Source: Lacisediminihabitans profunda
Lineage (GTDB): Bacteria; Actinomycetota; Actinomycetes; Actinomycetales; Microbacteriaceae
Length of the DNA stretch: 64,000 nt
NCBI RefSeq assembly: GCF_008040105.1
Contig: NZ_VRMG01000008.1
Location: forward strand, 310,001 to 374,000
Direction of reading: 5' to 3'
In this document: positions 16,376 through 31,992 of the stretch, piece by piece
Layout of the letters: the number at the start of each line of letters is the position of its first letter
Position numbering within the stretch: position 1 is the stretch's first letter
The notes under the pieces: model-generated
The model's database searches: none
The model's input: only the letters and a program-made list of their open reading frames with translations
Told to the model about the DNA's origin: nothing
Position numbers and translations under genes: made by a program

Positions 16376-17533
16376 TCACTGTTGATTGCTGAGCACAGCG
16401 AGAGCCGCCTCGACGCCGTCGCCGACGTTCACGGGCTGCCCGAGATCGACCAGGCTCCGCCCGAGCGCGGCAATGCCGACCACGGGATGAAGTCCGCTGG
16501 CGGTAGGACCCATGTGAGCAATCCTAATGAGGTTTCCGGCACCTTGGCCGCTGGAAAGCATCACGCCGTAGTGTTCGCGAACATGCGTGCGAACCTCAAT
16601 GTGGTCGACGGCATCGGGCAGTCGCACGCTCGTCACGCACGACGCGGCGATATCGTCGCTTGCCGGCCAGAGTTCGAGGCCCATTCCACGCACTCCCGCG
16701 CGCGCCACGTCCGCCGACGCGAAGTGGCGGGCGATGGAGGCGTCCACGCCCTCCTCCAGGACCTGATCGAGGCAGGCCTCAAGGCCGTGCATGTCGGAGA
16801 CCGACGGCGTGTACGGAAAAACACCTCCCTCGAGCCATTTCGTCTTCCAGTCGATAAGAGACAGGTAGGAGGATCGCGGCGCGCGTTCGTTGGCGAGCAT
16901 CGACTGCCAGGCTCCCGCGCTCACGGTCACCAGCGCGACGCCGGGAGGGCCACCGAGGCACTTCTGGGCGCCCGCGACGCAGACGTCCAAGCCCCATTCG
17001 TCGGTGAGAAACTCCATTCCCCCCACGCCAGAGACGGTGTCGACGAGGGTGAGCACACCACGTGCGCGGCAGATCGGGCCGATGCGCGAGACATCGGTCA
17101 CGGTGCCCGATGGGGTCTCGGATGCCACGAGCGTGACGAGCTCGATCTCAGGATGAGCGTCGAGGTACTCCTCCACAGCCGCTGGATCGACGGCCTCGTT
17201 GTAGGCCACCTCGATCTCGTGCAGCACGGCGCCGAAGTCGGTGAGCCAGTAGCCCATTCCCTTCCCGAACACACCCTGCACGAGGTTGAGCACGTGCATG
17301 CCTGGGCTCACGAGCGAACGTGCAGCACCCTCGAGACCCACGATGGCCTCGCCCTGCATGAGCACAATGTCGTTGGTCGTGCGGAACAGCTCGGCCACCT
17401 TGCGCTCGGTGCGCCGAAACGCCTCGAGAAAGTCCGGGTCGTAGTGATAGGTGATCGGCATACCGAGGGCCGCGAGCGTGCGCGGAGTCGCGACGGTCGG
17501 GCCCGCGGAGAGGGTGAAATCCAACTGAACCAT
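16376..17533 (-). CDS. ppat: Pyridoxamine-pyruvate aminotransferase (class V, fold type I)
   Basis: The 385-residue class V aminotransferase resembles Mesorhizobium loti PPAT across its length. Shared blocks are TLSAGPTVATP, YDPDF, GEAIVGLEGAA, GVFGKGMGYW, EIEVAYNEAVDP, ETPSGTV, QKCLGGPPG (Lys191 takes the role of the PLP lysine), FPYTPSVSDMHGL and LIRIAHMGPTA. PPAT transfers the amino group of pyridoxamine to pyruvate, giving pyridoxal and alanine, and binds pyridoxal as substrate instead of PLP. The Glu in GEA (residue 62) corresponds to the substrate-contacting Glu of the known enzyme. It lies 33 bp downstream of a BMP-type permease gene. An ordinary serine-glyoxylate or alanine-glyoxylate aminotransferase is the alternative, but the B6 neighbours argue against it. 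Confidence 0.85.
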   Translation of the reverse strand: MVQLDFTLSAGPTVATPRTLAALGMPITYHYDPDFLEAFRRTERKVAELFRTTNDIVLMQGEAIVGLEGAARSLVSPGMHVLNLVQGVFGKGMGYWLTDFGAVLHEIEVAYNEAVDPAAVEEYLDAHPEIELVTLVASETPSGTVTDVSRIGPICRARGVLTLVDTVSGVGGMEFLTDEWGLDVCVAGAQKCLGGPPGVALVTVSAGAWQSMLANERAPRSSYLSLIDWKTKWLEGGVFPYTPSVSDMHGLEACLDQVLEEGVDASIARHFASADVARAGVRGMGLELWPASDDIAASCVTSVRLPDAVDHIEVRTHVREHYGVMLSSGQGAGNLIRIAHMGPTASGLHPVVGIAALGRSLVDLGQPVNVGDGVEAALAVLSNQQ

Positions 17534-17566
17534 GGTGGTCCTTTCTGTGAGGGAACGAGGTGACGG

Positions 17567-18499
17567 TCAGCGAGCGCCGCGCGTATATGGCGCGCCGAGC
17601 ACGGGAGAGTTGTTCACGTCGCGGCCGAAGATCAGCAGCACGATCATGACGACTATGTACGGCAGCATGGTGATGAGGTCGGTCGGCACGTCGAGGCTCG
17701 TCAACTGCAGCACGGTGCCGACCGCGATCGTGAGGCCGTAGAGCAGCGAGACGATGACGACCCGCAGGATCTTGCCGCGGGACAGCATGGTCACGACGAT
17801 TGCGATATAGCCCAGCCCGTTCGTCATGAACGGCGTGAACGCGTTCGTCGCGAGCACCGAGAGATAGGCACCGCCGAGGCCGGAGAGCATGCCGCCGAGC
17901 AACACCGCCTGGGAACGCGTGCGCATGACGCTGCCTCCCGCCGCGTCGAGCGACGACGGCTTCTGGCCGGCGGCACGGATGCTCAGCCCCCAGTTGGTAC
18001 GCACGAGGAACCACGCGATGATCACCGCGAGCAGCAGCGACACCCAGAACATCGCGGGCTGGCTGAAGAGCGAGTGGCCCACCACCGGGATGTCGGAGAG
18101 CCCCGGGACCTTCCAGTTGTCGGTCGGGATGCGGGGCGACGTCTTCGAATAGATCTGGTCATAGAGCACCGTGGTGATTCCGCCGCCGGCAGCGGTGATC
18201 GCGATGCCGAGCACAATCTGGTTCAACCCGAGCCAGACGTTGAGAACCAGCAGCACGAGCGAGGTGATCGCGCCCGCAAGAAGTCCGCCCAGCATCCCGA
18301 GCCACGTTGAGTGCGTGGTGAGGGCGACGACGTAGCCGAAATAGGCGCCCATGAGCATCATGCCCTCGATGCCGAGGTTGAGCACCCCGGACTGCTCGCC
18401 GACGGTCTCGCCGATTGACGCGAGCATGAGCGGCACCGTGCCCGCCAGGCAGGCGATGATGAAGGCCGCGATGAAAGTCGGGGTCAGCAGATCGGTCAC
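17567..18499 (-). CDS. BMP-family ABC transporter permease 2 (NupQ/YufQ-like)
   Basis: The 310-residue permease has eight to ten predicted helices of the BPD_transp_2 family. It carries VLNLGIEGMMLMGAYFGY near residue 50 and the late MLPYIVVMIVLLIFG. The true start is the GTG at 18499 overlapping the TGA of the first permease (GTGA). A longer open frame reading back to 19366 is an artefact, since it runs through the other permease gene out of frame. Homologues pair with a second permease and a double ATPase in nucleoside importers. Here the next gene is the pyridoxamine aminotransferase, so the cargo is probably a B6 vitamer. Confidence 0.88.
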   Translation of the reverse strand: MTDLLTPTFIAAFIIACLAGTVPLMLASIGETVGEQSGVLNLGIEGMMLMGAYFGYVVALTTHSTWLGMLGGLLAGAITSLVLLVLNVWLGLNQIVLGIAITAAGGGITTVLYDQIYSKTSPRIPTDNWKVPGLSDIPVVGHSLFSQPAMFWVSLLLAVIIAWFLVRTNWGLSIRAAGQKPSSLDAAGGSVMRTRSQAVLLGGMLSGLGGAYLSVLATNAFTPFMTNGLGYIAIVVTMLSRGKILRVVIVSLLYGLTIAVGTVLQLTSLDVPTDLITMLPYIVVMIVLLIFGRDVNNSPVLGAPYTRGAR

Positions 18500-19692
18500 T
18501 TGCGCATCCTTCCGGTGAGGGCGTTGAGGGGCTTTCTCATCGCATCCTTCAGCTCGTCTGGGAGGTAGCTCTGCCCGAGATCGCGCTTGGTGCCGACGTA
18601 CTCGGTGACGGTCATGAACACGAGGATCAGCGCGACGACGATCTGCAGGAAGTCGACGGAGACTCCCGACTCCTGGGCGGCGATCGTGCCACCGGTCGCG
18701 AAGACCGAGTAGAAGGCGATGAACGGGATCGCCCCCACCGGGCTGAGCCTGGCGAGGAACACGAAGGGCATGATCGCATTGCCGTACGACGGATTCCAGT
18801 TGGTGCGCATGTAGCCCCACTGACCGAAGATGTCCATCGATGCGGCCAAGCCGATCAACCCGCCGCTGATGAGAAAGAGCACGATTGTCATCGTGCGCGA
18901 ATTGATGCCAACATGGCGCGCCGCCTTCGCGCTCGACCCGAACACATCGAGCCGAAGGCCGAACGACGTGCGACTGAGCACGAACTGGAAGATCACGGCG
19001 ACGAGCAGCGCAACGATGAGGCCGATCGGCACCTGCGTGCCCGGGATGTAGGGCAGCATGTCGCCGGGATCGATTGCCCGGCTCTGCGGGGTGCGCACAG
19101 CGGGGTTCTGGAAGACGTACTCGATCAGGATGTTGGTGAGGCCCACGCCGATCGTCGACATGACAATCGTGGTGATGATCTCGTTCGTTCCGAAGAAGGC
19201 CTTGAGCCAGGCCGGGATGATGGTCCATGCCGCCGCGACCGCGATCGCGGCGAGCGTGAGCACCAGGTAGGCGATGCCGGGCGACGTGGCCGCGATGAGC
19301 TGCGGAGCGAGGCCGGCGACGACGACACCGCCGAGCAGAAACTGCCCGTCGTAGCCGAGGTTCCACAGCTGGCCGCGGAACACCACGATGAGGCCGATCG
19401 CCACCAGCAGAAGCGGCGTCATCATGACGAGACTGTTCTCCCAGTTCTGGCCGACGAGCCCGTTCTCGATGATCGCGCCGTAGAACTGGAGCGGGTTCTT
19501 GCCCAGGGCGAGAAGGATGAGCGCCGCCACGATGAGCGCGAGCACGATCGGCACGATTGAGCGCACGACGATATCGATGGCGCGCCGCCCCGACGACGAG
19601 CGACTGGTGACCAGTTCTGCCTCGTCCTCGAGCGGGGTGATCTCCGTCGTAATGCCGTCGGGGCTCTCGGTCGAGGTGTCAGTCGTTGTCAT
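18496..19692 (-). CDS. BMP-family ABC transporter permease 1 (NupP/YufP-like)
   Basis: The 398-residue permease has a polar N-terminal ~35 residues followed by around ten predicted helices of the BPD_transp_2 family. Typical motifs are GLIVVFRGQLWNLGYDGQF, FFGTNEIITTIVMSTIGVGL, and RAARHVGINSRTM-type cytoplasmic contact sequence. Its ATG lies within the ATPase gene (14 bp overlap) and its TGA overlaps the second permease start. It forms the heterodimeric membrane channel of the importer that precedes the PPAT gene. Confidence 0.9.
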   Translation of the reverse strand: MTTTDTSTESPDGITTEITPLEDEAELVTSRSSSGRRAIDIVVRSIVPIVLALIVAALILLALGKNPLQFYGAIIENGLVGQNWENSLVMMTPLLLVAIGLIVVFRGQLWNLGYDGQFLLGGVVVAGLAPQLIAATSPGIAYLVLTLAAIAVAAAWTIIPAWLKAFFGTNEIITTIVMSTIGVGLTNILIEYVFQNPAVRTPQSRAIDPGDMLPYIPGTQVPIGLIVALLVAVIFQFVLSRTSFGLRLDVFGSSAKAARHVGINSRTMTIVLFLISGGLIGLAASMDIFGQWGYMRTNWNPSYGNAIMPFVFLARLSPVGAIPFIAFYSVFATGGTIAAQESGVSVDFLQIVVALILVFMTVTEYVGTKRDLGQSYLPDELKDAMRKPLNALTGRMRK

Positions 19693-21298
19693 GCGCCCTG
19701 CCTCCGATCATGTAATGGCCGACGCGCTCCGCGACGTCCGGCCCTCCGTCGTTCTGGACCGTGCCGACGATGCTGCCCCTCGAGATCACACCGATGCGGT
19801 CGGAGAGCTCGATCAGTTCATCGAGTTCGGTGGAGATCAGCACGACGCATCCGCCGTCTGCGGCGAATGCCCGCAGCAGGTCGTGCACGAGCCGCACCGA
19901 CTTGAGGTCGAGCCCGTAGGTTGGCTTGTTCACCACCACGACGCGTGCTCCGTGCCCCAGTTCGCGAGCCAGCAGCACCTTCTGGATGTTGCCCCCAGAC
20001 AGTGTGCCCACCCGCGTACTCGGCGACGGAGTTCGAATCGTGTACTGCGTGATGAGCCGCTTCGCCTCGTCGTTCACCGCCGTCTTGTTGATCTGGCCGA
20101 AGCGCCAGAACGGCGCCATGCCGATGCGCTTGAGCAGGAGGTTGATGGCCACGCTGAGGTTGCCGACGGTTCCCTCGTGCAGGCGGTCGTCCGTGACATA
20201 GCGCACGCCCTTCTCCTGGCGGGAACGCACCCCGAGCCGCGTGATGTCTGCTCCCTCGAGTGAGATGGTGCCGCTGGCGATCGCGCGCTGGCCGGAGAGC
20301 ACCTCGGCGAGACCCGCCTGGCCGTGGCCGTCGATTCCCGCGATACCGAAGATCTCGCCCTCGTGAATGGAGAAGGAGATGTCGGTGACCGAGACATCCA
20401 TCGACTTGCCGACACTGGTGACGCCGGCTACCTGCAGACGCACCGGTCTGCCCGTGACGTCGACCCGCGAGGCCTCGGGGGCGGCCTCGGTGGCGCCCGC
20501 GAGTTCGGCCGCAGACTCGATGCTGCCGGCCGCCGCGAGGTCATCGCCGAACATCGCGCGAAGAATCTCTGCCTGCGCCTCGGCTTCGGTGAGGCTCTTC
20601 ATGCGCTCGGGAGTGAGCTCGCCCACCTTGCGCCCTCCGCGGAGCACCGTCACGCAATCGCCCATCGTGTAGGCCTCGCGCAGTTTGTGCGTGATGAAGA
20701 CGATGCCGAGGCCCTCTGCCTTGAGGCGGCTCATGCTCTCGCCCAGGCTCTCGATGGCCGACGGCGTGAGCATCGAGGTGGGTTCGTCGAGAATCAGGAG
20801 CCGCGAGCCCGTCCACATCGCCTTGGCGATCTCGACCTGCTGTTGCTGCCCGAGGGCAAGGTCGCTGGCGAGGATGTTCGGGTCGATCGAGGCGCCGAGC
20901 AGGCCCGAGAGTTCTTCGAGCCGCGAGGCCGCCCGCTTCTCTTTGAGCATCAGGCCGCCCTCGCCGAGCATCAGATTCTCGAGCACCGTGAGAGACGGCA
21001 CGAGCGTGGAGTGCTGGTGCACAACGCCGATGCCGAACTTCATCGCCGCCTTGGGCGAGCCGATCGTGACGGGCACGCCGTCGATCGCGATCGACCCGGA
21101 GTCGGGAAACTGCATGCCCGCCAGGATGCTGATGAGCGTCGACTTGCCCGCCCCGTTCTCGCCGAGGAGGCAGTGCACCTGGCCGTTGAGGATGTCGAGC
21201 GAGATGTCGTCGTTGGCGATCACGCCCGGAAATGCCTTGGTGATGCCGCTGAGAGAGATGACTCCGGCCGCTGGGGCGAGCGTGGGGGATGCTGACAT
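19679..21298 (-). CDS. BMP-family ABC transporter double ATP-binding protein
   Basis: The 539-residue protein is two fused ATPase domains, as in ribose and nucleoside importers. Domain 1 has Walker A GENGAGKSTL near residue 43 and the intact Walker B LLILDEPTSMLTP. Domain 2 (from ~270) has the degenerate GIDGHGQ in place of Walker A, signature LSGGNIQKVLLAREL, and NKPTYGLD where DEPT is expected. A degenerate second site is normal for this group. It follows the substrate-binding gene after a 90 bp gap holding a hairpin and overlaps the first permease. It powers uptake of the same ligand. Confidence 0.92.
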   Translation of the reverse strand: MSASPTLAPAAGVISLSGITKAFPGVIANDDISLDILNGQVHCLLGENGAGKSTLISILAGMQFPDSGSIAIDGVPVTIGSPKAAMKFGIGVVHQHSTLVPSLTVLENLMLGEGGLMLKEKRAASRLEELSGLLGASIDPNILASDLALGQQQQVEIAKAMWTGSRLLILDEPTSMLTPSAIESLGESMSRLKAEGLGIVFITHKLREAYTMGDCVTVLRGGRKVGELTPERMKSLTEAEAQAEILRAMFGDDLAAAGSIESAAELAGATEAAPEASRVDVTGRPVRLQVAGVTSVGKSMDVSVTDISFSIHEGEIFGIAGIDGHGQAGLAEVLSGQRAIASGTISLEGADITRLGVRSRQEKGVRYVTDDRLHEGTVGNLSVAINLLLKRIGMAPFWRFGQINKTAVNDEAKRLITQYTIRTPSPSTRVGTLSGGNIQKVLLARELGHGARVVVVNKPTYGLDLKSVRLVHDLLRAFAADGGCVVLISTELDELIELSDRIGVISRGSIVGTVQNDGGPDVAERVGHYMIGGRAHDND

Positions 21299-21343
21299 CG
21301 CGGTTGGGGGCCCTTCGAGGTGTTGATGGAGCAGAGGGGAGGT

Positions 21344-21369: not shown

Positions 21370-21388
21370 GCCCCCCGTTTACTACGTG

Positions 21389-22480
21389 CTATCCGTTGAG
21401 CAAGGCGGTCAGGTCTGCCTTGGTCGACGTGTCGGGAACGGTGATGCTGCCATCCTCGATGCCCTTCTGTGCCTTCGTCGTGGCTGCCGTGATGTCAGAG
21501 GTCATGTCTGCGGTCTTCTGCAGCTTGATTCCCCCGTTCTTCAGGTCGAGGTTGTAGGGAGCCGTGGCGAACTTGCCTGCCTTGATGTCATTGATCGCCT
21601 GGCTGTATGCGCCGTCGAAGACCCAGAGCACCGAGGTGAGGACCTCGTTGGGGTTGGTCACGAGGTCGGAGACGTCACCGATGTCGGCAATGTACTTGAC
21701 CTTGTTGCCAGCCTGGTTGGCTTCATCGACTGCTGCGACATAGCCGACGGTCGCCCCGTCTCCCATGCCGAAGATGACGTCGTCGCCCGCCGCGATGAGC
21801 TGCTGCACGACCTTCTTACCGCCCGCCGAATCGTCGTAGGCGGCTGCGCCGATGTATGCGACATCAACGTGGATCGACGGGTTGACGCTCTTGGCGCCGG
21901 CGATGAAGCCGCCCGACATCGTGAACCAGTTCACGTCGTCGGCCGAGATCGCGATGCCCAGTTTGTTGGTCTTCGTCGTCATGGCGGCGGCGATGCCTGC
22001 CAGGTAGCCACCCTGCTGGGCGCTGAAAGTGATGACGCCGATCTTGTCTTTGACCTGGGCCGTCGGCACGTCGGTGATGAGGAATGGCACGCCGGTCTTG
22101 GCGTTGGCAGACGCCGCCGCCTGGCCGAATCCGCTGGCGTGGGCGATCACGAAGCCCACGCCCGACTTCTGCGCGGCCTGGGTGAGGATCGTCTGGGTGT
22201 TGTCGTAGCCGACGTTGGTGTCGCTCGTGAGCGTGAGCGAGGTCGCCTTGGCTGCGGCCTTTGCTCCGGCGAGACCCATCTGGTTCCAACCGTGGTCGGA
22301 CTCAGTGGCGGGAGTGACGATCGTGACAGTGGTGAAGTCGCTCTTCGCAGAGGTGTTGGCCGGGGCAGTGCCTCGGCCAGCGCATCCGGTGAGCAGGGCC
22401 GCGACCGCGACCACGGCAATCAGGGGTACTGCCCTTGTGGCCGCAAGCGACCGGCGGGCGAAAGAGGTGGGGCTGTGCAT
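21389..22480 (-). CDS. BMP family (PnrA-like) substrate-binding lipoprotein, probable B6 vitamer receptor
   Basis: The 363-residue lipoprotein has a signal with lipobox LLTGC (Cys33) and the BMP/PnrA fold: TIVTPATESDHGWNQMGLAGAKAAA after the anchor, VIAHASGFGQAAA, GYLAGIAAAMTTKTNKLGIA, GGFIAGAKSVNP and VIFGMGDGATVGYV. The ATG at 22480 has AGAGGAA ten bases upstream; a longer frame to 22528 lacks support. Known members bind purine nucleosides. The operon here continues with two permeases, an ATPase and the pyridoxamine aminotransferase, and the divergent side leads to 4-pyridoxolactonase. I therefore infer pyridoxine or pyridoxamine as ligand; this is not proven. Confidence 0.88.
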   Translation of the reverse strand: MHSPTSFARRSLAATRAVPLIAVVAVAALLTGCAGRGTAPANTSAKSDFTTVTIVTPATESDHGWNQMGLAGAKAAAKATSLTLTSDTNVGYDNTQTILTQAAQKSGVGFVIAHASGFGQAAASANAKTGVPFLITDVPTAQVKDKIGVITFSAQQGGYLAGIAAAMTTKTNKLGIAISADDVNWFTMSGGFIAGAKSVNPSIHVDVAYIGAAAYDDSAGGKKVVQQLIAAGDDVIFGMGDGATVGYVAAVDEANQAGNKVKYIADIGDVSDLVTNPNEVLTSVLWVFDGAYSQAINDIKAGKFATAPYNLDLKNGGIKLQKTADMTSDITAATTKAQKGIEDGSITVPDTSTKADLTALLNG

Positions 22481-22531: not shown

Positions 22532-22570
22532 TTCTCACATTGTGCGGGTGGTAGCTGACACTATGAGAAG
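22532..22570. promoter_or_regulatory. Divergent promoter region with TTCTCA-type repeats (candidate IclR operator)
   Basis: TTCTCACATTGTG at 22532-22544 and an inverted CACTATGAGAAG at 22559-22570 lie between the divergent transporter and lipoprotein genes. A similar TTCTCATACTGTG lies before the lactonase gene at 23215. The shared element suggests a common regulator, with the island's IclR protein the first candidate. Confidence 0.4.
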
Positions 22571-22628: not shown

Positions 22629-23144
22629 ATGACCACACCGCTTAATGAATGGATGAATCCGGTGACCCGAGCAGTGCCCCTAGTCGTGACCTGCCTTGCT
22701 GCCGCGCTTGTTCTCACAGGCTGCAGTGCCGCCCAGACGGCCGGTGTGTCGTCTCCCCCTTCGACGTCGACGAGCGGCCCATCGCCCGTGCCGACCAACG
22801 TGGTTGCGGTGCCACAGGATGCCGCGGCCTTCAGCCAACTCGGGGAGGCGGCGCCGCTCGCGCTGAAGCTCGAGGGCGGCACTGTGAGCTCGACCGCCTG
22901 CTGGACCCCTTCGGAACACCTGTTCAACGACCCATCGGTGGCCCCGCCAGGAACCTGGAAGGTGCTGTGCCGTGTGTTCTACGACCTCAAGGGCAAGGCG
23001 CGATATCAAGATGCCACCTGCATCGGCGACTTCGACAAGACCCCCATGCTCGACCACTGCTACGTCTGGGAGATCTACTCCGACGAGGCACACTTCGAAG
23101 ACGGCAACCGCCTGGCTACGCCGGCCCCGACACCCGTTCCGTGA
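22629..23144 (+). CDS. Small secreted lipoprotein of unknown function
   Basis: About 171 residues with a signal sequence and lipobox LVLTGC (Cys32), a Ser/Pro/Thr linker to ~70, and then a compact domain with three cysteine-bearing segments (TACWTP, WKVLCRVFY, DATCIGD) and DHCYVWEIY. I do not recognise a family. The start is uncertain: the ATG at 22629 has no clear Shine-Dalgarno and a second in-frame ATG lies at 22653. It sits alone between the divergent B6 transporter and the 4-pyridoxolactonase gene on the lactonase strand. The conserved cysteines suggest two disulfides outside the cell. A surface role in B6 uptake is possible but speculative. Confidence 0.65.
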   Translation: MTTPLNEWMNPVTRAVPLVVTCLAAALVLTGCSAAQTAGVSSPPSTSTSGPSPVPTNVVAVPQDAAAFSQLGEAAPLALKLEGGTVSSTACWTPSEHLFNDPSVAPPGTWKVLCRVFYDLKGKARYQDATCIGDFDKTPMLDHCYVWEIYSDEAHFEDGNRLATPAPTPVP

Positions 23145-23214
23145 GCGGTCACGTTTCAGTCGTGTAAAAACCTGCTGGGACACACCATCACAACCCTTGA
23201 CCAGCACGCACTGC

Positions 23215-23227
23215 TTCTCATACTGTG
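23215..23227 (+). promoter_or_regulatory. Candidate operator upstream of the lactonase operon
   Basis: TTCTCATACTGTG lies 48 bp before the start codon and matches the 22532 site at 10 of 13 positions. The position between promoter and ribosome site would suit repression. Confidence 0.35.
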
Positions 23228-23274
23228 ATGAACAATTAACGCACTGTAAAAAATCTGGCCTTTCGGAGGAACCC

Positions 23275-24033: not shown

Positions 24034-24078
24034 CCCCACCACCCAATCAACCCCGAAAACACGAGAAAGCAGTAGAAC

Positions 24079-24807: not shown

Positions 24808-24810
24808 CCC

Positions 24811-26358
24811 ATGGCTGGCTGCGACGTATTAATCATCGGAGCAGGATCCGCCGGGAGCGTGCTCGCCAACCGGTTGACTGCCGACACGTCGCGTAGCGTG
24901 GTCGTGCTCGAAGCCGGCGGTCGGGTCACCGATCCCGACATGCGTGCGCCTGGGCGCTGGCCGTTCAACTACGGCAAGCCCTGGGACTGGGCCTTCGAGA
25001 CCGCACCACAGCCGGGCCTTGCCGGGCGGTCGCTCGAATGGCCGCGCGGCAAGGGCCTCGGCGGGTCGAGCCTCATGCACGCCATGGCACACATGCGCGG
25101 CTGTCGCGCCGACTTCGACCGCTGGGTCGACTTGACGGGAGACAGCAGATGGTCGTGGGAGTCGCTGCTTCCCTTTTTCATACGCTCTGAGTCGTTTTCC
25201 GGAGGGCCCAGCGCCGTTCACGGAGCAGACGGACCGCTGCCGGTGCTGCTGCCCGGTCCCGACCTGAGCAGCCCGCTTGTGCAGAGCTACCTCGACGCCT
25301 GGGCTTCACTCGGTGTGCCCCTCATCCCGGACCATAACGGCGGCGAGATGCTCGGCGCGACGCCGAACTCGCTCACGATCCGCAACGGCGAGCGCGTCAC
25401 GGTCTCCGACGTCTACCTCGACCCGGTGCTCCACCGTCCCAACCTGACGCTCATCGAGGGTGCCACGGTGGATCGGCTGATCCTCGATGGCGACCGCATC
25501 GCCGGGGTCGAGTATGAGGTCGGTGGTTCGTTGGAACTCATCGAGGCGGATGTCGTGATCCTGTCGGCGGGATCCCTCGCCGACCCCCTGCTGCTCATGC
25601 GTTCGGGCATCGGGGACCCGGCAGTGCTCGCCCCTGCCGGAGTCAAGACGCTCATCGAGTCGACCGGGGTCGGGCGCAACCTGCAGGACCACCTGCTCGG
25701 AGCAGGCAACGTCTATTCCTCGTCGCACCCGGTCGCCCCGTCTCGTCTGCAGCTCTCGGAGTCGATGACGTATCTGTCGCTCTCGGGGCTCGGCACCACG
25801 AGCGGAGCTCCGGATGTCGTGGTCGGCTGCGTCGTCGGCCCCAGCGCATCCGAGGTGCATCAGCCGCGGCTGGCGGAGGTCGCCCCCGGCGGTGCGTACA
25901 CGCTCTTGTTCGGCGTGACCAACCCGACCAGCCGCGGGTCCCTGCGCATCAGCGGCGCCTCCGCAGACGACGCCCCCATCATCGACCCGAACTACCTCGA
26001 CACGGAGCACGACCGCGTGATGTTCCGCGCGGCACTCGAGCACGCCCGGCTCGTCGGGGCATCGGAAGGCATGGCAGGGTGGCGTCGCGAGGAACTGCTG
26101 CCCGGCGCATCCGTGTCATCGCGGCGTGACGTGGACGCGTTCATCCAGCGGGCCGCCATCACGCACCACCACCCGGTCGGCACCCTGAGCATGGGGGCCA
26201 CCGCCGACACCCCTGTCACCCCCGACCTGCGGTTGCGCGGAATCAGCAACTGCTATGTGGTGGATGCGTCGGTCATCCCCTCGATCACCGCCGGGCCGGT
26301 TCACGCGTCGGTGCTGGCGATCGCGGAGTCGTTTGCGGATTGGTTCGTTGCCAGCTGA
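24811..26358 (+). CDS. pnox: Pyridoxine 4-oxidase (GMC family flavoprotein)
   Basis: The 515-residue GMC oxidase has the FAD motif GAGSAG at 10-15, GLGGSSLMHAMAHMRG near 85 and the signature region SAGSLADPLLLMRSGIGD near 255. The active-site His occurs in THHHPVGT. The second catalytic position is a proline in TAGPVHAS, as reported for pyridoxine 4-oxidase, where most GMC enzymes have His or Asn. Other shared blocks are NGGEMLGATPNSLTIRNGERVT, NLQDHLLGAGN and SRLQLSESM. The enzyme oxidises pyridoxine to pyridoxal with O2. It begins 3 bp after the pyridoxal dehydrogenase stop. The related 4-pyridoxate dehydrogenase is the alternative, but the blocks listed favour the oxidase. Confidence 0.87.
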   Translation: MAGCDVLIIGAGSAGSVLANRLTADTSRSVVVLEAGGRVTDPDMRAPGRWPFNYGKPWDWAFETAPQPGLAGRSLEWPRGKGLGGSSLMHAMAHMRGCRADFDRWVDLTGDSRWSWESLLPFFIRSESFSGGPSAVHGADGPLPVLLPGPDLSSPLVQSYLDAWASLGVPLIPDHNGGEMLGATPNSLTIRNGERVTVSDVYLDPVLHRPNLTLIEGATVDRLILDGDRIAGVEYEVGGSLELIEADVVILSAGSLADPLLLMRSGIGDPAVLAPAGVKTLIESTGVGRNLQDHLLGAGNVYSSSHPVAPSRLQLSESMTYLSLSGLGTTSGAPDVVVGCVVGPSASEVHQPRLAEVAPGGAYTLLFGVTNPTSRGSLRISGASADDAPIIDPNYLDTEHDRVMFRAALEHARLVGASEGMAGWRREELLPGASVSSRRDVDAFIQRAAITHHHPVGTLSMGATADTPVTPDLRLRGISNCYVVDASVIPSITAGPVHASVLAIAESFADWFVAS

Positions 26359-26406: not shown

Positions 26407-27120
26407 TCAGTCCCCGAAGAACAGCCGCTGCGCCGTGCCGCCCATGACCTCGACCAGGTCGGCTGGATCGAGTCCGGCGAGCTGCACCTTGAGTTGCTCC
26501 ACCTTGGGCTGGTGGAATGGGCCGTCCGACCCGTACATCACCCGGTCGTTGCCGATGCGGCGCACTGCCTCAAGGATCTTCGAGCTCATCGGCATACCCG
26601 AGGTCTCGAGCCAGACATTCGGATGCCGCGAGGCGACCGCGATCGCCCCGTCGATGTAGACGATGTTGCCGTGACCCATGTGACCGAGAATGATCCTGGC
26701 CTCCTCATATCGGGTGACCAGTTCCTCGATGCTCCAGGGCAGGGTGAAGATCGGGTGCCCGCAATGGATCAGCGCGGGCAGTCCGTGCTCGATCAACACC
26801 TCGATCACCGGCCAGACGAATGGCTCGTCCGGGTGATAGCCGTCGAGCAGCGGGTGCATCTTCACGCCCCGGAACTTGGGATCGGCCAGGTAATCCCGCA
26901 ACTCGGACACGCAATCCGGGTTCTTGGGATTCGCCCAGTAGAGCCCGAAGGCGTTGTCGACCTCATGCACCGTCTCGCGCACCAAAGCATTGTCGGGGTT
27001 GAAGATCATGCCCGTCGCGATGCCGTTGTCGGCGAGGTAACCGGCAAGGCCGTTCTTGTCCAAACGCACATCGAAAAGCGGGAACTCCCCCACGTGCATG
27101 TGGGCGTCGGTGATCTCCAC
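26407..27120 (-). CDS. Amidohydrolase superfamily protein (COG2159-like), role in B6 cluster unknown
   Basis: The 237-residue TIM-barrel protein starts with the metal motif DAHMHVGE (HxH) at 5-12 and has a KMHPLLDGY segment near 95, an LIHCGHP histidine near 120, LGHMGHG near 145 and YGSDGPFH near 200 with the metal-binding Asp. It is short for the family (usual members 280-330) yet has all the expected ligands, so it looks complete. The superfamily includes hydrolases and also non-oxidative decarboxylases such as ACMSD. It is the last gene of the MHPC oxygenase operon, 2 bp after the PEBP-like gene. A role in B6 catabolism (hydrolysis or decarboxylation of an intermediate) is inferred only from position. 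Confidence 0.8.
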   Translation of the reverse strand: MEITDAHMHVGEFPLFDVRLDKNGLAGYLADNGIATGMIFNPDNALVRETVHEVDNAFGLYWANPKNPDCVSELRDYLADPKFRGVKMHPLLDGYHPDEPFVWPVIEVLIEHGLPALIHCGHPIFTLPWSIEELVTRYEEARIILGHMGHGNIVYIDGAIAVASRHPNVWLETSGMPMSSKILEAVRRIGNDRVMYGSDGPFHQPKVEQLKVQLAGLDPADLVEVMGGTAQRLFFGD

Positions 27121-27122
27121 GA

Positions 27123-27578
27123 TCAGCGCTGAAAGGTGCCGACGAAACGCGCCTGCTCGATGATCGCGTCGCTGTAGTCCGCGAGGAACTCCTCACGCGT
27201 CGGCACGCCCGTGACTGCCCGGTTGAGGGCGTAGACCCAGAAGTAGTAGTGATGCACCCCGTGACCGAAGGGCGGCTGCGGGCCATACCAGGAGGCCTGG
27301 CCCGCACCGTTCGGCCCGACCTTGACCCCAGCGGCGGCGAGGTCGAGAGACGTCGCATCGGCGGGTATTCCGTAGACCGTCCAATGAGTGAAGCCGTCGG
27401 GCAACGGGGCGTCCGGGTCGTGGCAGATGATGGCGAGTTCGACCGTGCCCTCGGGCGCTCCCGAGAACTCCAGGCGGGGAGTCGTGTTGCCGCCATCCGC
27501 CGAGAACTGGGCGGGGATGGGGGCAAGAGGCTGAATGTCAGGACTCGAGATCGTGAGTTTGTCGACGAAGAGCGCCAC
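27123..27578 (-). CDS. YbhB/YbcL family Raf kinase inhibitor-like (PEBP) protein
   Basis: The ~151-residue protein has the phosphatidylethanolamine-binding-protein fold signatures: TPRLEFSGAPEGTVELAIICHDPDAP (anion-binding DPDAP), FTHWTVYGIP, and GHGVHHYYFWVYALN. The preferred start is the GTG at 27578 with AAAGG six bases upstream; a TTG at 27602 is less likely. PEBP proteins bind small anions or phospholipid head groups, and bacterial ones have no firmly known task. Being embedded between the AAMS hydrolase and the amidohydrolase in the B6 operon is unusual and suggests it handles a carboxylated intermediate. That is inference. Confidence 0.85.
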   Translation of the reverse strand: MALFVDKLTISSPDIQPLAPIPAQFSADGGNTTPRLEFSGAPEGTVELAIICHDPDAPLPDGFTHWTVYGIPADATSLDLAAAGVKVGPNGAGQASWYGPQPPFGHGVHHYYFWVYALNRAVTGVPTREEFLADYSDAIIEQARFVGTFQR

Positions 27579-27613
27579 GGTGGGCCTTTCTGTAGGGGGC
27601 AACGGAGGGAAAA

Positions 27614-28453
27614 TCAGGAGAGCGAGAGCAGGCGCCGCAGTTCAGCAGCGACCAGCATGGGGTTCTCTTCGGGAACGTAGTGATCGGCCGTCGGGTCGAC
27701 GACGAACCGGTCCTGCGGTCGTGCCGCGAGGGCCGCCTGCCACGCCGCATCGCTGACGATGCCGCTGTTGGCGCCGCGCACCTGGATCATGGGCACACTG
27801 ACCGCGGCGAACTCCACGGACCACGGGGTGCGAAAGCCCTCGATCAGCTGGTCCATGGCCGACGGATCGGCGAGCGGACGCCAGAGCCCGTCGTCGTGCT
27901 GGCGATAGCCCCACAATGCCCGCCGCGCGACTGCGTCTGTCGGCAGCAGCGGATAACGCTCCTGCAGATAGGCCTCGACGTCATCCACCGAGGCGAAGGC
28001 GCGATTGCCCGCGGCGACGCGCGCGTGCAGAGTGTCGAGAACGTCGCCCTCGACCCAGGGGGTGTATTCGACCGCGAGCACACCCGCGGTGCGCTCCGGA
28101 TGCAGCGCCCCCGCCAGCCAGGCGTTGCGAGCACCGAGTGAATGGCCACCCACGATGGCGGTGTCGATGTCGAGCGCGTCGAGAACCGTCAGGACGTCGC
28201 CTGCGAAATCGGCCCCGGTGTATCCCGTGGCCGGTTTATCGCTTCGGCCGTGCCCGCGCTGATCGAGGGCGATCACGGTGGCTGACGATTCGAGCGCCGA
28301 CGAGATCGGTTCCCACACGGCATGGCTCGCGGAGGTGCCGTGCAGCAACACGACCGCGGGGCCGGTGCCGCGCACCCGAAAGGCGATATCGACATCCGCC
28401 CCGTGGGTGCGCTGCAGGCCGGCGGCGAGGCTCTCGACCGAGGAGGTGAGCAT
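27614..28453 (-). CDS. 2-(Acetamidomethylene)succinate hydrolase (alpha/beta hydrolase)
   Basis: The 279-residue alpha/beta hydrolase matches M. loti AAMS hydrolase in several blocks: DQRGHGRSDKPATGY, the elbow GGHSLGARNAW (Ser105), VEYTPWVEGDVLDTLHARV, EAYLQERYPLLP, GLWRPLADPSAM, and TADHYVPEE with the catalytic His. The enzyme takes the ring-opened product of MHPC oxygenase and releases succinic semialdehyde, acetate, ammonia and CO2, the last committed step of B6 breakdown. Its ATG overlaps the stop of the FHMPC dehydrogenase gene by one base, showing translational coupling. Confidence comes from both the blocks and the operon; no search was run. Confidence 0.9.
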   Translation of the reverse strand: MLTSSVESLAAGLQRTHGADVDIAFRVRGTGPAVVLLHGTSASHAVWEPISSALESSATVIALDQRGHGRSDKPATGYTGADFAGDVLTVLDALDIDTAIVGGHSLGARNAWLAGALHPERTAGVLAVEYTPWVEGDVLDTLHARVAAGNRAFASVDDVEAYLQERYPLLPTDAVARRALWGYRQHDDGLWRPLADPSAMDQLIEGFRTPWSVEFAAVSVPMIQVRGANSGIVSDAAWQAALAARPQDRFVVDPTADHYVPEENPMLVAAELRRLLSLS

Positions 28454-29388
28454 CAGACCGGGGTGATGCTCGACAGGGTCTTGCGCGCGGCGACGAGCCC
28501 GGCCGTGATGTCTTTGAGCTTCGCCGCGACGTCGCCCTCGCCGTATTCGTACATGCCACCGCCGGTCTTGAAGCCGAGCTTGCCCGCGGCGATCATGTCG
28601 GTCACGACCTGCGGGGTCTCGGTGTCGGAGTTCAGTTCCTTATTGAGGTAGCTCGAGACCGCCGCATAGATGTCCATGCCTGCCATGTCGAGCAGTCGCG
28701 TTGGGCCGATCACCGAGAGCTTGTAACCGATGCCCCACTTGACCGCAGTGTCGAGACCCTCGGGCGTGACGATGCCCTCTTCGAGCAGAGCCACGCACTC
28801 ACGCAGGATTGCATACAACACTCGGTTCTCGACGAAGCCCGCGATCTCCTTCTCGATCACCGGGTGGTAGCCGAAGGCCTTGACGATCTCGACCAGCTGG
28901 TCAGTGACCGCAGCGTCGGTCGCCTTTCCGGGAATCACCTCGATCATCGGGATGAGGTGCGGCGGGTTGGACCAGTGCATGCCCACGAAACGGCCGGGCA
29001 CGGTCATCGATTCGGCCATCGCCGTGATCGGGATTCCTGAGGTGTTGGTCGCGATGATCACATCCTTGCCCACCAGCGATTCGATCTGCCCGAGCACCGT
29101 CTTCTTCAGCTCGATCTTCTCCGGCACGGCCTCGATCACGAAGAGCGACCCGCTGAGTGCCGCGGCGATGTCGGTGGTGAAGCTCACCGATCCGCCCTCC
29201 ACCGTGTCGCTGCCGAGCTGCTCGAGCACGCCAGAGGCGAAGGCGAACGTATTCTCGGCCTTGGCGAGAGCCTCGGCGCTGATGTCGTAGACGCGCACCT
29301 CGGCGCCGGCACGCACGAGGGTCGCGGCGATGCCGGGGCCCATCGTGCCGGAGCCGACGACGGTCGCAATGGCGGGGAGTGAACTCAT
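28453..29388 (-). CDS. 5-Formyl-3-hydroxy-2-methylpyridine 4-carboxylate (FHMPC) dehydrogenase
   Basis: The 311-residue protein looks like a 3-hydroxyacyl-CoA dehydrogenase: GSGTMGPGIAATL Rossmann motif, NTSGIPIT, GMHWSNPPHLIPMIEVI, GFVENRVLYAILRE and GWGIGYK-like segments. These blocks, above all SGIPIT, GMHWSNPPH and VKWGIGYKLSVIGPTRLLDMAG, are those of the FHMPC dehydrogenase of M. loti rather than of CoA-ester enzymes. That enzyme oxidises the 5-formyl group to give 3-hydroxy-2-methylpyridine-4,5-dicarboxylate with NAD+. The ATG at 29388 is chosen since the family begins there; a start at 29406 would add six residues. It overlaps the hydrolase gene by one base. Confidence 0.88.
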   Translation of the reverse strand: MSSLPAIATVVGSGTMGPGIAATLVRAGAEVRVYDISAEALAKAENTFAFASGVLEQLGSDTVEGGSVSFTTDIAAALSGSLFVIEAVPEKIELKKTVLGQIESLVGKDVIIATNTSGIPITAMAESMTVPGRFVGMHWSNPPHLIPMIEVIPGKATDAAVTDQLVEIVKAFGYHPVIEKEIAGFVENRVLYAILRECVALLEEGIVTPEGLDTAVKWGIGYKLSVIGPTRLLDMAGMDIYAAVSSYLNKELNSDTETPQVVTDMIAAGKLGFKTGGGMYEYGEGDVAAKLKDITAGLVAARKTLSSITPV

Positions 29389-29444
29389 GAGCGGTCTCGC
29401 TTTCATCTGGGAACTGGTGGTGGCGTTGCGGTTAGGGGGATCGG

Positions 29445-30206
29445 TCAGACCTGGGCGATACCGATGCCCTGCAGGGCCTCGACGCGATCGAGCTTGCGGT
29501 TGAAGTACATCCAGTAATTGCGCTGGGCCTTCGGCGGGTAGATGCGCCGACGCTTCTCAACGCTCTCCTCGTGGTCCGGGCGGTCGAATTTCGCTCCGGA
29601 CGAGAGCAGGTCCAGCTGGAACTTGCACGCCCACTCCAGAAAGATCCCGGCGAGCATCATCTCTGCCACGTCATCCCCCACGAAGGCGACTCCGTGATTC
29701 TTGAGCAGGATCGCCTCCGCATCGCCCAGCTGCTTAGCGACCGCGACCCCGAGTTCGACGGAGGTGACGATCTGGCTGGTCTCGCTGAAGCGCGGCACGC
29801 CATGCTCCGCAAACCACACGCCGTGGTTGTTGAACGGACCGAGGTCCTCATCGGTCGCACCGAGCACCGTCGCGTAGTGCGAGTGCGAGTGGCCGACGAA
29901 GTTCACATCGGGGCGGGCCCGCATGATCTCGGCGTGCAATGGCCACTCCAGATGACGGAGCCCGGTGCCCGCGAGCACGTTGCCGTCGAAATCGATGAGG
30001 ATGAAGTCGTCGCCGACGACCTCGGAGAGCGCGAGGTTGCCGCGTTTCAACCACAGCCCGCGGCCGAACGGATCGCGAAAAGAGATGTGGCCCATCGACA
30101 TGTCGCCATGGCCCTCCAGCTCGAGGATGCGGTGCGCGCGCGCGGCGTCTTCGAGAGAGTTGGCGATGGATTCGTCCTGGTGAAACGTGCCGGAGGTGTA
30201 TCCCAC
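29445..30206 (-). CDS. 3-Hydroxy-2-methylpyridine-4,5-dicarboxylate 4-decarboxylase (class II aldolase/adducin fold)
   Basis: The 253-residue protein belongs to the class II aldolase/adducin family: GDMSMGHISFRDP near 33, the metal pair in VGHSHSHYATVLGA near 105 (HxH), and ILLKNHGVAFVGD with the third His near 165. M. loti uses a protein of this fold, mlr6791, for HMPDC decarboxylation, and the surrounding genes encode the enzymes that act just before and just after it. It begins with GTG after GAAAGG. The reaction removes the 4-carboxyl to give 2-methyl-3-hydroxypyridine-5-carboxylate. A sugar-phosphate aldolase is the generic alternative and cannot be excluded by motif alone. Confidence 0.8.
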   Translation of the reverse strand: MGYTSGTFHQDESIANSLEDAARAHRILELEGHGDMSMGHISFRDPFGRGLWLKRGNLALSEVVGDDFILIDFDGNVLAGTGLRHLEWPLHAEIMRARPDVNFVGHSHSHYATVLGATDEDLGPFNNHGVWFAEHGVPRFSETSQIVTSVELGVAVAKQLGDAEAILLKNHGVAFVGDDVAEMMLAGIFLEWACKFQLDLLSSGAKFDRPDHEESVEKRRRIYPPKAQRNYWMYFNRKLDRVEALQGIGIAQV

Positions 30207-30233
30207 GGTTTGCCTTTCGTGAAGAGGGGTGAA

Positions 30234-30827
30234 TTACTTCGAGAGCTGGGCGATCGCCTCGTCGCGAGTGAGCCCACCCACGCGCTGGTGGATGCGGCCG
30301 CGTGTCGACGCGGCAACGCAGATGAGCAGCTCGTTCGGTCTCGGCGCGTCCGGAACGGTCAGCGTCACGGCGTCGTAGTGGGAGCGGACATACAACTCGT
30401 CTTTGTATGCCAGCGGCACGTCGAGCGACGAGCCGGTCGACGCGGTCTTGGTCGCCGACGAGATCCACGCCTCTCCGCCGCCGACAGCCGCACGAAATGC
30501 GTCGCCGAAGACGGTCGTGATGCACGCGACGACGTGGTCCTGATCGCCGTTGACTCCGGCGATGCCGCCCTTGCCATAGCCCTCGACCGGCCGACCGCCC
30601 AAGAGCGCGAGCACACGGGCTCCGAGGGCGGTGCCGAGGCTCGCGCTCGGCTCGGTCAGGGGCGACAGGTCTTCGACCCAACGTCCGGCGAAGGGGTTGG
30701 CGATGACCACGCCGGCCACCGCCTTGAACAGGGGCTGCTGCTGCACGGGGCCGCCCTCATGGCTGATCTCCTGCACGAAGCCGAACCACTCGCGCACCTG
30801 GTAATAGGAATCGATCTCGGGGAACAT
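30234..30827 (-). CDS. Amino acid synthesis family (DUF1185-like) protein
   Basis: The 197-residue protein matches the AA_synth/DUF1185 family: ALFKAVAGVVIANPFAGRW-like start (KAVAGVVIANPFAG), LGARVLALLG, GGIAGVNGDQDHVVAC and a C-terminal LLICVAASTRGRIHQRVGG. The family has a compact alpha/beta fold and appears in catabolic clusters for N-heterocycles and amides; a reaction has not been assigned as far as I know. The ATG at 30827 is supported by an AG-rich leader. It lies between MHPC oxygenase and the HMPDC decarboxylase in the B6 operon, so it may assist ring cleavage or process an intermediate. Confidence 0.82.
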   Translation of the reverse strand: MFPEIDSYYQVREWFGFVQEISHEGGPVQQQPLFKAVAGVVIANPFAGRWVEDLSPLTEPSASLGTALGARVLALLGGRPVEGYGKGGIAGVNGDQDHVVACITTVFGDAFRAAVGGGEAWISSATKTASTGSSLDVPLAYKDELYVRSHYDAVTLTVPDAPRPNELLICVAASTRGRIHQRVGGLTRDEAIAQLSK

Positions 30828-30846
30828 TCTCTTCTCGTCTCTCTTC

Positions 30847-31992
30847 TCAGACCACTGCGTCGTGGCGGTGACTGTTGGTCGGGTCGTACAGTGTGGTCTC
30901 ATTCACGTCGCCGGTGAACTGGTTGCCGTAAGCCATCCCGCGGGTGTTGGCGTACTCCTGCGAACGATCCTGGCAGCGGTCGGTTATCGGCCGCTCGACG
31001 CGCTCCCACTCGACCAACGCAGCCGGGATGCCGGCGATGTCAGACTCAGACGCGGCCTGGGCGACCGTGTACGCATTCATGATCGCGCATCCCCCGCCCT
31101 GCGCGAGCGCCGGGCACATCGCGTGCGCGGAATCCCCCACCAGAGCGACCCGCCCCTTCGTCCACTGCTCGAGGCGTGTGGTCTGGTAACCGTAGTACTT
31201 GCCCTCGACCTTCGCGGCCTCGTCGAGCACGGGTGCGAGCTGGGGATGGATCGACTTCCAGAGTTCGAGGTCGATCGGCACCGCCGACCCATCCGGGTCG
31301 TCGGAGGGCGCCATGAGCGCGATGTAGAGCTCGTTCTCGTTAGCCGGCGTGTATAGCACGCGCAGCACCCTGGGCTCGAGGTTCCAGAAGTCGATCATGT
31401 TGTCCCAGTCGGTATCGGGCTCGATCGCCTGCAACTCGGCCTTCTTGCGCGGAACGAGAAAGCGCGAGATTCCATCGCGGCTGGTCTGGCGGTCGAACTC
31501 GATGCCCAGGGAATCGCGCACCGGCGAGCCGACGCCGTCGGCCCCGATGATGAGATCCGCCTCGAATTCGGTTCCGTCTTCGAGCCACAGCGTGCCCTGC
31601 TCGGTTGCGCCGGCGACAGTCGATCCGGTGAGGATCTCCACACCCTCACGCCGCGCGGCGTTGGCGAGCACCGAGTGCAGGAACGGGCGAGTCATCGTGC
31701 GCCACCAGATGTCAGGCATGGCTTCGTCAGAGACGATGCTGTTCTGCATGCGCGTCTCGTAAAAGGGAGGGGTCATCGATCCCTCGTTGATTTCGTCGAT
31801 CAGGCCGAAGGCGTCGAGCACCCGAAGGCTGTTCTGCCAAAGCACGATTCCGGCGCCCTGCTCACGCAGCACTTCGGCGCGTTCGTGAACGCGAACCGTC
31901 CATCCCTGACGCGCGAGCGCGATCGATGCGGTGAGTCCGGCGAAGCCGGCTCCTGAGACCTCTGCGTGCCGACGGTGGGGAGTGGAACTCAT
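30847..31992 (-). CDS. 2-Methyl-3-hydroxypyridine-5-carboxylate (MHPC) oxygenase
   Basis: The 381-residue FAD monooxygenase has GAGFAGL at 14-20 for FAD, GADGVGSPVRDSLG near 168 for the DG motif, and VALVGDSAHAMCPALAQGGG near 295. Blocks shared with M. loti MHPCO are EQGAGIVLWQNSLRVLD, TPPFYETRM, RTMTRPFLHSVL, DNMIDFWNLEPRVLRVLYTP and ALMAPSDDPDGSAVPIDLELW. MHPCO hydroxylates the ring and cleaves it with O2 and NADH to give 2-(acetamidomethylene)succinate. It is first in the seven-gene minus operon. Its ATG has CGAGGA upstream and lies 42 bp from a TNGTNNNACNA palindrome. Confidence 0.9.
   Translation of the reverse strand: MSSTPHRRHAEVSGAGFAGLTASIALARQGWTVRVHERAEVLREQGAGIVLWQNSLRVLDAFGLIDEINEGSMTPPFYETRMQNSIVSDEAMPDIWWRTMTRPFLHSVLANAARREGVEILTGSTVAGATEQGTLWLEDGTEFEADLIIGADGVGSPVRDSLGIEFDRQTSRDGISRFLVPRKKAELQAIEPDTDWDNMIDFWNLEPRVLRVLYTPANENELYIALMAPSDDPDGSAVPIDLELWKSIHPQLAPVLDEAAKVEGKYYGYQTTRLEQWTKGRVALVGDSAHAMCPALAQGGGCAIMNAYTVAQAASESDIAGIPAALVEWERVERPITDRCQDRSQEYANTRGMAYGNQFTGDVNETTLYDPTNSHRHDAVV

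Follow-up and report, generated by a model that had tools for sequence, protein, structure and literature searches.

A 4-pyridoxate-type island for vitamin B6 degradation in the actinobacterium Lacisediminihabitans profunda, probably a variant of the known pathway in its middle steps

The catabolism of vitamin B6 has been called the best understood catabolism of a cofactor, and all of the Mesorhizobium loti genes for it are described as identified (excerpt of PMC3538738). Pathway I of M. loti MAFF303099 and Pseudomonas MA-1 employs pyridoxamine-pyruvate aminotransferase (PPAT), pyridoxine 4-oxidase, an SDR-type pyridoxal 4-dehydrogenase, 4-pyridoxolactonase, 4-pyridoxic acid dehydrogenase, FHMPC dehydrogenase, a decarboxylase, 2-methyl-3-hydroxypyridine-5-carboxylate (MHPC) oxygenase, termed MHPCO, and (E)-2-(acetamidomethylene)succinate (AAMS) hydrolase. 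A second way of degrading B6, the 5-pyridoxate route of Pseudomonas IA and the actinobacterium Arthrobacter Cr-7, ends in 2-(hydroxymethyl)-4-oxobutanoate (excerpt of PMC3538738). Here we describe a 17-gene set for the uptake and degradation of vitamin B6 in Lacisediminihabitans profunda, which largely matches the pathway known from Mesorhizobium. It lies in the window, a 64,000-nucleotide stretch of DNA (G000:C150:310001-374000) from a genome of 4.0 Mb in 171 contigs. Since 4-pyridoxolactonase and FHMPC dehydrogenase are present, the 4-pyridoxate rather than the 5-pyridoxate route is favoured.

The island comprises three transcription units. The first runs on the minus strand from 31992 to 26407 and encodes MHPCO, a PF06684 protein, a decarboxylase, FHMPC dehydrogenase, AAMS hydrolase, a PEBP/YbhB-like protein and an amidohydrolase; the second, on the plus strand from 22653 to 26358, encodes a lipoprotein, 4-pyridoxolactonase, the SDR pyridoxal 4-dehydrogenase and a GMC oxidase; and the third, on the minus strand from 22480 to 15560, encodes the binding protein, the ATPase and two permeases of a B6 ABC transporter, followed by PPAT and an IclR-family regulator. 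A preliminary description of this DNA had placed eight M. loti-type enzyme genes in three operons together with an IclR gene, an arrangement that we find as claimed, and its reading of the locus as an actinobacterial island for breaking down B6 by way of 4-pyridoxate is well supported. The transporter, lipoprotein, PF06684, PEBP and amidohydrolase genes are additions to that account. Its wording “nearly complete” obscures what matters most: no 4-pyridoxic acid dehydrogenase was found and the decarboxylase is divergent. We put at about 0.6 the probability that the island serves to import B6 and degrade it via 4-pyridoxate to succinic semialdehyde, with a homolog of FHMPC dehydrogenase carrying out both oxidations at the 5-hydroxymethyl group, so that two enzymes would lead to MHPC. 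Homology supports the transporter, the entry steps, ring opening and hydrolysis; the two-enzyme middle section and helper roles of the PF06684 and PEBP proteins are what we infer. The island is thus probably a variant of the known 4-pyridoxate pathway, new in its middle steps.

For seven of the eight enzymes named in the preliminary description, the best match in the PDB is a solved vitamin B6 enzyme, ahead of the next family. We take these entries to be M. loti proteins, the PDB listing naming most of the molecules and not the organism. After import of B6 vitamers by the BMP-type transporter, pyridoxamine would be converted to pyridoxal by PPAT (16376..17533, minus strand), which matches 2z9u with 355 bits against 145 for the next enzyme and NF046070 with 417 bits (cut-off 600, next family 190); 2z9u, listed as “Aspartate aminotransferase”, is presumably PPAT. 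Pyridoxine would yield pyridoxal through the GMC oxidase (24811..26358, plus strand; 3t37/4ha6 at 529 bits against 263). Pyridoxal would then be oxidized to 4-pyridoxolactone by the SDR enzyme (24079..24807, plus strand), whose margin is the narrowest (3ndr at 251 bits against 207) and which also passes the cut-off of the NCBI equivalog NF047923. The lactonase (23275..24033, plus strand), over the cut-off of NF047925 and matching 3aj3 with 267 bits against 128 in an alignment that begins at this start, would hydrolyse the lactone to 4-pyridoxate.

At the far end of the pathway, MHPCO (30847..31992, minus strand; 3alj at 417 bits against 98 for the next family) would open the ring, and AAMS hydrolase (27614..28453, minus strand; 3kxp at 198 bits against 69) would cleave the product. 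Residues Y78, R177 and Y223 of the window MHPCO, which correspond to Tyr82, Arg181 and Tyr223, are invariant in six aligned rows, and Tyr54 is not kept in the window protein; we take all four to be substrate contacts. In AAMS hydrolase, the ten substrate or catalytic side chains named in an excerpt of PMC3538738 are invariant in 76 of 76 sequences. FHMPC dehydrogenase (28453..29406, minus strand) matches 4om8 with 287 bits against 158, and its best NCBIfam family is NF042925 (384 bits, cut-off 500). The eighth assignment, that of an M. loti-type HMPDC decarboxylase, is doubtful: this class II aldolase-type protein (29445..30206, minus strand) belongs to the Pfam family of the M. loti enzyme (PF00596), but it is matched by 8iqa, an “Aldolase”, with 73.6 bits, ahead of 2z7b with 57.3 bits, and falls into a separate clade. 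The entry 2z7b, listed as “Mlr6791 protein”, is presumably HMPDC decarboxylase. The expectation that automatic pipelines would give only generic names is partly mistaken: the lactonase, pyridoxal 4-dehydrogenase and three transporter parts pass the cut-offs of their NCBI models, and PPAT and FHMPC dehydrogenase have such models and stay below theirs. The stronger notion that automatic annotation would miss all of the genes was rejected, since NCBI models pass their cut-off for these five.

The main departure from pathway I concerns 4-pyridoxic acid dehydrogenase. To compare gene content, relatives of MHPCO were collected by a scan of the species genome collection, and the best 80 of 102 loci were kept, some of them on short contigs. 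Thirty-six are classed as actinobacterial (L022-L057), including L027, which is titled only “uncultured bacterium” and was placed among the actinobacteria by its sequences, and 44 as proteobacterial (L058-L101), M. loti being L060. Genes were counted per locus by query proteins, the clustering of open reading frames being confounded by overlapping shadow frames in high-GC DNA; such clustering was later used for nine loci with a short operon only.

M. loti carries two GMC genes in this locus: its pyridoxine 4-oxidase is 53% identical to the window's oxidase, and the second (L060:13163-14818), located between the genes for the decarboxylase and FHMPC dehydrogenase, is 35% identical to it. From the order mlr6791-mlr6793 and the position of the gene, we take the latter to be 4-pyridoxic acid dehydrogenase. 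Of the 44 proteobacterial loci, 41 carry a GMC dehydrogenase of this M. loti type, with identities of at least 82%, and the three loci without it (L071, L087 and L101) also lack the decarboxylase and FHMPC dehydrogenase. None of the 36 actinobacterial loci has it. Their GMC proteins are the oxidase, with 33-44% identity to the M. loti gene (51% over a short piece at the end of L027), and a GMC of the pyridoxine 4-oxidase type is held by 18 of the 36.

Beyond the loci themselves, no ortholog of the M. loti GMC was found in 14 whole actinobacterial genomes with MHPCO (13 of them with FHMPC dehydrogenase), the best match reaching 45%. Matches were noted at E<=1e-40, and at this threshold five of the 14 genomes (those of L047, L048, L052, L053 and L031) gave none. 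The search omitted L028 and covered eight of the nine short-operon genomes; its controls scored 100% and 89%, with paralogs at up to 45% in M. loti and, for a single paralog, 50% in the other control. The best match in the window genome, at 43%, is a GMC gene (C150:308895-310475) about 15 kb from the left edge of the island, of which only the last 475 bases (1-475) fall inside the window. GMC genes of the same type occur in two genomes of the same genus, G076 and G139, both without MHPCO. Among the other five MHPCO genomes of a draw from the family, searched at E<=1e-70, G026 and G069 returned only the island oxidase, and G011, G012 and G047 returned nothing. The neighbouring gene was therefore rejected as the missing dehydrogenase, not being coupled to MHPCO in the family draw at that threshold. 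A dehydrogenase hidden within the island was likewise rejected: the enzyme-like genes were all placed in families, with a single GMC among them. The only orphan, the 163-residue lipoprotein, matches no Pfam family and was not found in the short operons.

The two enzymes of the proposed middle section also differ from their proteobacterial counterparts, most of all the decarboxylase. Median identities between the window and the proteobacterial loci are 54% for MHPCO, 62% for the PF06684 protein, 57% for PEBP, 43% for AAMS hydrolase, 47% for FHMPC dehydrogenase and 31% for the decarboxylase. A decarboxylase tree of 40 rows (15 of 34 actinobacterial and 10 of 41 proteobacterial sequences, the window's own, 13 paralogs and the 8iqa stretch) separates an actinobacterial clade (support 100/99) from a proteobacterial one (100/100), and the window protein is 41% identical to a paralog from its own genome versus 30% to the M. 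loti enzyme. Across 23 aligned rows, three histidines and a glutamate do not vary; we take them to be of the kind that binds metal in the class II aldolase family. For a tree of MHPCO, 11 of the 44 proteobacterial rows were used and L022, L025 and L043 were excluded; in one comparison of relatives L047, whose stretch ran over a stop, was shortened, and as a precaution L087 was shortened too and L053 was left out.

FHMPC dehydrogenase belongs to the 3-hydroxyacyl-CoA dehydrogenase family, members of which typically oxidise alcohols. Positions 93, 121, 223 and 237 read A, N, K or R, and R in all 34 actinobacterial rows; in the proteobacterial rows N93 and D121 appear in 40 of 41, one being gapped, and S223 and A237 in 41 of 41. 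Among 18 other family members from four genomes, position 93 is A in 15, and position 121 is N in 13 and D in none. The enzymes of both phyla have K229 and a WSNPPH motif in common, which occur in none of the 18 other aligned family members; this sharing suggests a common 4-carboxylate substrate. The title of a paper on the M. loti enzyme calls it “an NAD+-dependent dismutase” (Yokochi 2009, as cited in an excerpt of PMC8322615). An aldehyde dismutase makes an alcohol and an acid, which here would mean 4-pyridoxate and HMPDC. Elsewhere in the window, a protein encoded at 58943-60082 on the minus strand also has FHMPC dehydrogenase as its best NCBIfam model (232 bits, cut-off 500). Its sequence reads HWMNPAP where FHMPC dehydrogenase has HWSNPPH, and it may be a further family member that belongs to a different operon.

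We propose that the FHMPC dehydrogenase homolog would oxidise the 5-hydroxymethyl group of 4-pyridoxate twice, via the aldehyde to the acid, using two NAD+, a role assigned to it because no 4-pyridoxic acid dehydrogenase was found. The divergent class II aldolase-type decarboxylase, perhaps recruited independently, would remove the 4-carboxylate to give MHPC. Since the shared K229 and WSNPPH suggest a common 4-carboxylate substrate, oxidation before decarboxylation is slightly favoured. In its widest form the proposal is tentative, and we give it somewhat less than even odds: an actinobacterial shortcut, in which a four-electron alcohol-to-acid oxidation by FHMPC dehydrogenase would replace a flavin dehydrogenase plus an aldehyde dehydrogenase next to a separately recruited decarboxylase, in which some lineages would scavenge 4-pyridoxate with a ten-gene operon, the PF06684 and PEBP proteins would be enzymes for reactive ring-opening products and the lipoprotein would be a new part of B6 uptake. 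Set side by side, the two phyla show that the actinobacteria examined have no gene for the dedicated flavoenzyme that this step was believed to require.

The ten-gene operon is found in nine loci, from Microbacterium marinilacus, Pseudoclavibacter, Allonocardiopsis, Arthrobacter hankyongi, three Streptomyces, Georgenia and Streptomonospora. Its common genes encode an ATPase, a permease, an NMT1-type binding protein (family assigned by Pfam for L046 and L047), MHPCO, the PF06684 protein, the decarboxylase, FHMPC dehydrogenase, AAMS hydrolase, PEBP and IclR, and within about 10 kb on either side no further gene is common to all nine. A genome-wide search for 4-pyridoxolactonase, which omitted L034, found no ortholog in the nine short-operon genomes and a single match of 34%. 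The binding protein is 42-53% identical to that of the M. loti cluster, and in L046 and L047 the permease and ATPase are 56-59% identical to theirs. Based on the transporter and the set of enzymes, we read the short operon as feeding on 4-pyridoxate: it would scavenge this compound with only two enzymes between 4-pyridoxate and MHPC. Animals excrete 4-pyridoxate as a waste product of B6, and the short operon would accordingly mark bacteria that use it.

Several points weigh against the two-enzyme middle section. All functions in the island are assigned from sequence alone, the 4-pyridoxate feeding of the short operons is inferred from their transporter and enzymes, and the identity of the M. 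loti GMC dehydrogenase is taken to be what gene position and the mlr6791-mlr6793 order indicate, NCBIfam naming L060:13163-14818 only as choline-dehydrogenase-like. The long branches of the decarboxylase tree leave the origin of the actinobacterial clade unsettled. A basic residue at position 223 of FHMPC dehydrogenase also occurs in nine of the 18 other family members, and the four differing positions may only mark ancestry, because their correlation spans a single split between phyla. A non-GMC 4-pyridoxate dehydrogenase encoded elsewhere in each genome is possible, the unlinked genes having been searched with the M. loti GMC only. The last point leads to an explanation that we regard as unlikely, namely that the standard M. 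loti route is intact, with its middle not rewired, and that 4-pyridoxic acid dehydrogenase, perhaps an unrelated enzyme, is encoded at an unlinked site. Catabolic genes need not cluster, and the 43% GMC near the left edge of the island would fit this explanation; yet genes of its type occur in same-genus genomes without MHPCO and were not found at E<=1e-70 among the remaining MHPCO genomes in that draw, five of the 14 actinobacterial genomes have no match to the M. loti GMC at E<=1e-40, and the compact operon of nine genomes has no such gene in common. That the GMC pyridoxine 4-oxidase of the island oxidises 4-pyridoxate as well would be in line with the GMC nature of the missing enzyme and with the oxidase-type GMC of 18 actinobacterial loci; however, the nine short-operon loci as well as L045, L052 and L053 keep FHMPC dehydrogenase and the decarboxylase with no GMC in the locus, the same five genomes lack a match to the M. 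loti GMC at E<=1e-40, and the window GMC is nearest to pyridoxine 4-oxidase, all of which makes this double role improbable.

The order of the two middle steps could also be reversed, the aldolase-type enzyme acting on 4-pyridoxate and FHMPC dehydrogenase oxidising 5-hydroxymethyl-2-methylpyridin-3-ol via the aldehyde to MHPC. This is a variant of the best explanation, its odds overlapping with those given above, and we consider it possible though doubtful. The decarboxylase is the most divergent of the six proteins (31% versus 43-62%) and forms its own clade, its three histidines and glutamate are invariant, and 4-pyridoxate shares with HMPDC the 3-hydroxy/4-carboxylate pattern. Against this order, FHMPC dehydrogenase keeps the residues that it has in common with the proteobacterial enzyme, and the two extra basic residues at 223 and 237 are the opposite of what loss of a carboxylate from the substrate would lead one to expect. 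A last caution stems from the actinobacterial protein KnmB1, which is 45% identical to M. loti MHPCO, serves karnamicin biosynthesis as a hydroxylase and is without the catalytic residues of MHPCO (excerpt of PMC9838390). Together with the generic names of the enzyme classes, it might suggest that the island degrades some other substituted pyridine and not B6; but the nearest solved relative is a B6 enzyme for each of PPAT, pyridoxolactonase, pyridoxal dehydrogenase, MHPCO and AAMS hydrolase, and the transporter belongs to NCBI's B6 family, and we hold this to be very improbable.

Comparison with other described systems sets the island in context. Relative to pathway I, the island has the same entry enzymes, FHMPC dehydrogenase, MHPCO and AAMS hydrolase, and it differs in the 4-pyridoxic acid dehydrogenase that was not found, in a decarboxylase from another clade, in four positions of FHMPC dehydrogenase, in the extra lipoprotein and in the order of its genes. 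The preliminary description held that the pathway had been worked out in proteobacteria, a statement that must be qualified for the entry enzymes: pyridoxine 4-oxidase and pyridoxal 4-dehydrogenase of the actinobacterium Microbacterium luteolum were cloned and expressed (excerpt of PMC2642769). By the title of a reference in the same excerpt, the M. luteolum dehydrogenase is an aldo-keto reductase, which by this description sets it apart from the SDR of the window. The statement that Arthrobacter Cr-7 uses the other, 5-pyridoxate route agrees with the excerpt of PMC3538738.

As in M. loti, genes for a PF06684 (DUF1185) protein (30234..30827, minus strand, with 30827 as start; 202 bits, gathering cut-off 27, solved relatives 2qtp and 3byq) and a PEBP/YbhB-like protein (27123..27602, minus strand; PF01161) lie beside MHPCO. 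Across the 80 loci, PF06684 is found near MHPCO in 78, AAMS hydrolase in 76 and PEBP in 75; the short contigs L025, L043 and L050 account for seven of the 11 misses, and L049 has a weak PF06684 match (38%) that lies some 4 kb away from MHPCO. Two genes with no assigned function are thus as constant near MHPCO as AAMS hydrolase. PF06684 proteins also occur in the systems that degrade trigonelline (TgnF of Acinetobacter baylyi) and 7-hydroxycoumarin (HcdD), which are different substrates. The trigonelline pathway ends in a closely similar amidomethylene succinate. In an excerpt of PMC7913881, TgnF is said to stimulate the TgnE-dependent oxidation of succinic semialdehyde, and attempts to see an effect of HcdD failed. 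By analogy, it is a reasonable guess that the PF06684 protein acts on the enamine or formyl succinate after AAMS hydrolysis: perhaps together with PEBP, it may accelerate the breakdown of aminomethylene or formyl succinate into succinic semialdehyde. Other PF06684 paralogs (about 37%) were seen near MHPCO loci at L020:3104-3661 and L049:4915-6168.

The island is rare and patchy, because MHPCO occurs in six of 150 genomes of the family, the window genome included, and in one of 396 genomes of the phylum, which is the window genome itself (four candidates scored per genome). The family draw holds two other genomes of the same genus, both without MHPCO. The nearest named MHPCO relatives are from Microbacteriaceae (a metagenome isolate at 94%, Leifsonia at 74% and Schumannella at 73%). 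In four other genera of the family, the block has the same order in G069, G026 and G011 and is rearranged in G047; G011 lacks PPAT in the stretch examined, G047 lacks the GMC oxidase, and the amidohydrolase was seen in G026 only. The decarboxylase and FHMPC dehydrogenase co-occur throughout, in the same 34 actinobacterial and the same 41 proteobacterial loci. Four MHPCO loci (L087, L101, L071 and L049) hold neither enzyme and may start from MHPC or another pyridine. Among the open-access papers listed by literature searches, none dealt with actinobacterial MHPCO gene clusters for the breakdown of B6, which is weak evidence, subscription papers lying mostly outside that search.

The remaining island genes concern uptake and regulation. 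The transporter corresponds to NF047927-NF047930, three of the four over their cut-off: the BMP-type substrate-binding protein (21389..22480, with an ATG candidate at 22480; NF047927), the ATP-binding protein (19679..21298; NF047930) and permease 2 (18496..19692; NF047929) exceed theirs, and permease 1 (17567..18499), whose start is unsure with a GTG candidate at 18499, scores 333 bits with NF047928 (cut-off 465); all four lie on the minus strand. The IclR-family gene (15560..16324, minus strand), last in the transporter/PPAT unit and PcaR/BhcR-like by NCBIfam but below the cut-off, keeps its place in three family genomes and has moved in G047. The predicted lipoprotein of 163 amino acids (22653..23144, plus strand) is the first gene of the lactonase unit. 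A private insertion was rejected for it, since 20 of the 36 actinobacterial loci carry it, each of them one of the 21 that have lactonase, and it is located between lactonase and binding protein; it is found in none of the 44 proteobacterial loci. The amidohydrolase-2 family protein (26407..27120, minus strand; PF04909) has counterparts of at least 69% identity in 10 of the 36 actinobacterial loci.

The divergent region holds two promoter-like sites with the common sequence TTCTCATA(C/G)TGT. One copy, TTCTCATAGTGT (22558..22569, minus strand), overlaps the -10 element of the site before the transporter unit, and the other, TTCTCATACTGT (23215..23226, plus strand), overlaps that of the site before the lactonase. 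Promoter predictions over the whole window are near the shuffled expectation (3 versus 1.9). Allowing two mismatches, the motif has six matches in the window versus 2.1 expected, a count reached by one of 100 shuffles. Across 45 loci of relatives (855 kb, some genomes represented twice), TT(C/T)TCATANTGT has ten matches in nine loci, and each of these falls at the binding-protein gene or in the stretch that precedes the lactonase. Of the 22 loci that have both genes, 8 show the motif between them; in L033 it precedes the lactonase.

Outside the conserved block, a succinate-semialdehyde dehydrogenase-like gene (34622..36334, minus strand; TIGR01780 at 545 bits, cut-off 646) could encode a drain for the end product of the pathway; it was rejected as a member of the island, being absent from the stretches of four relatives. 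Further along, at 39047-47864, the window holds a catabolic cluster with two hydrolases of the metallo-beta-lactamase fold, an SDR, a hydroxyisobutyrate-type dehydrogenase, a cupin and a branched-chain-type ABC transporter.

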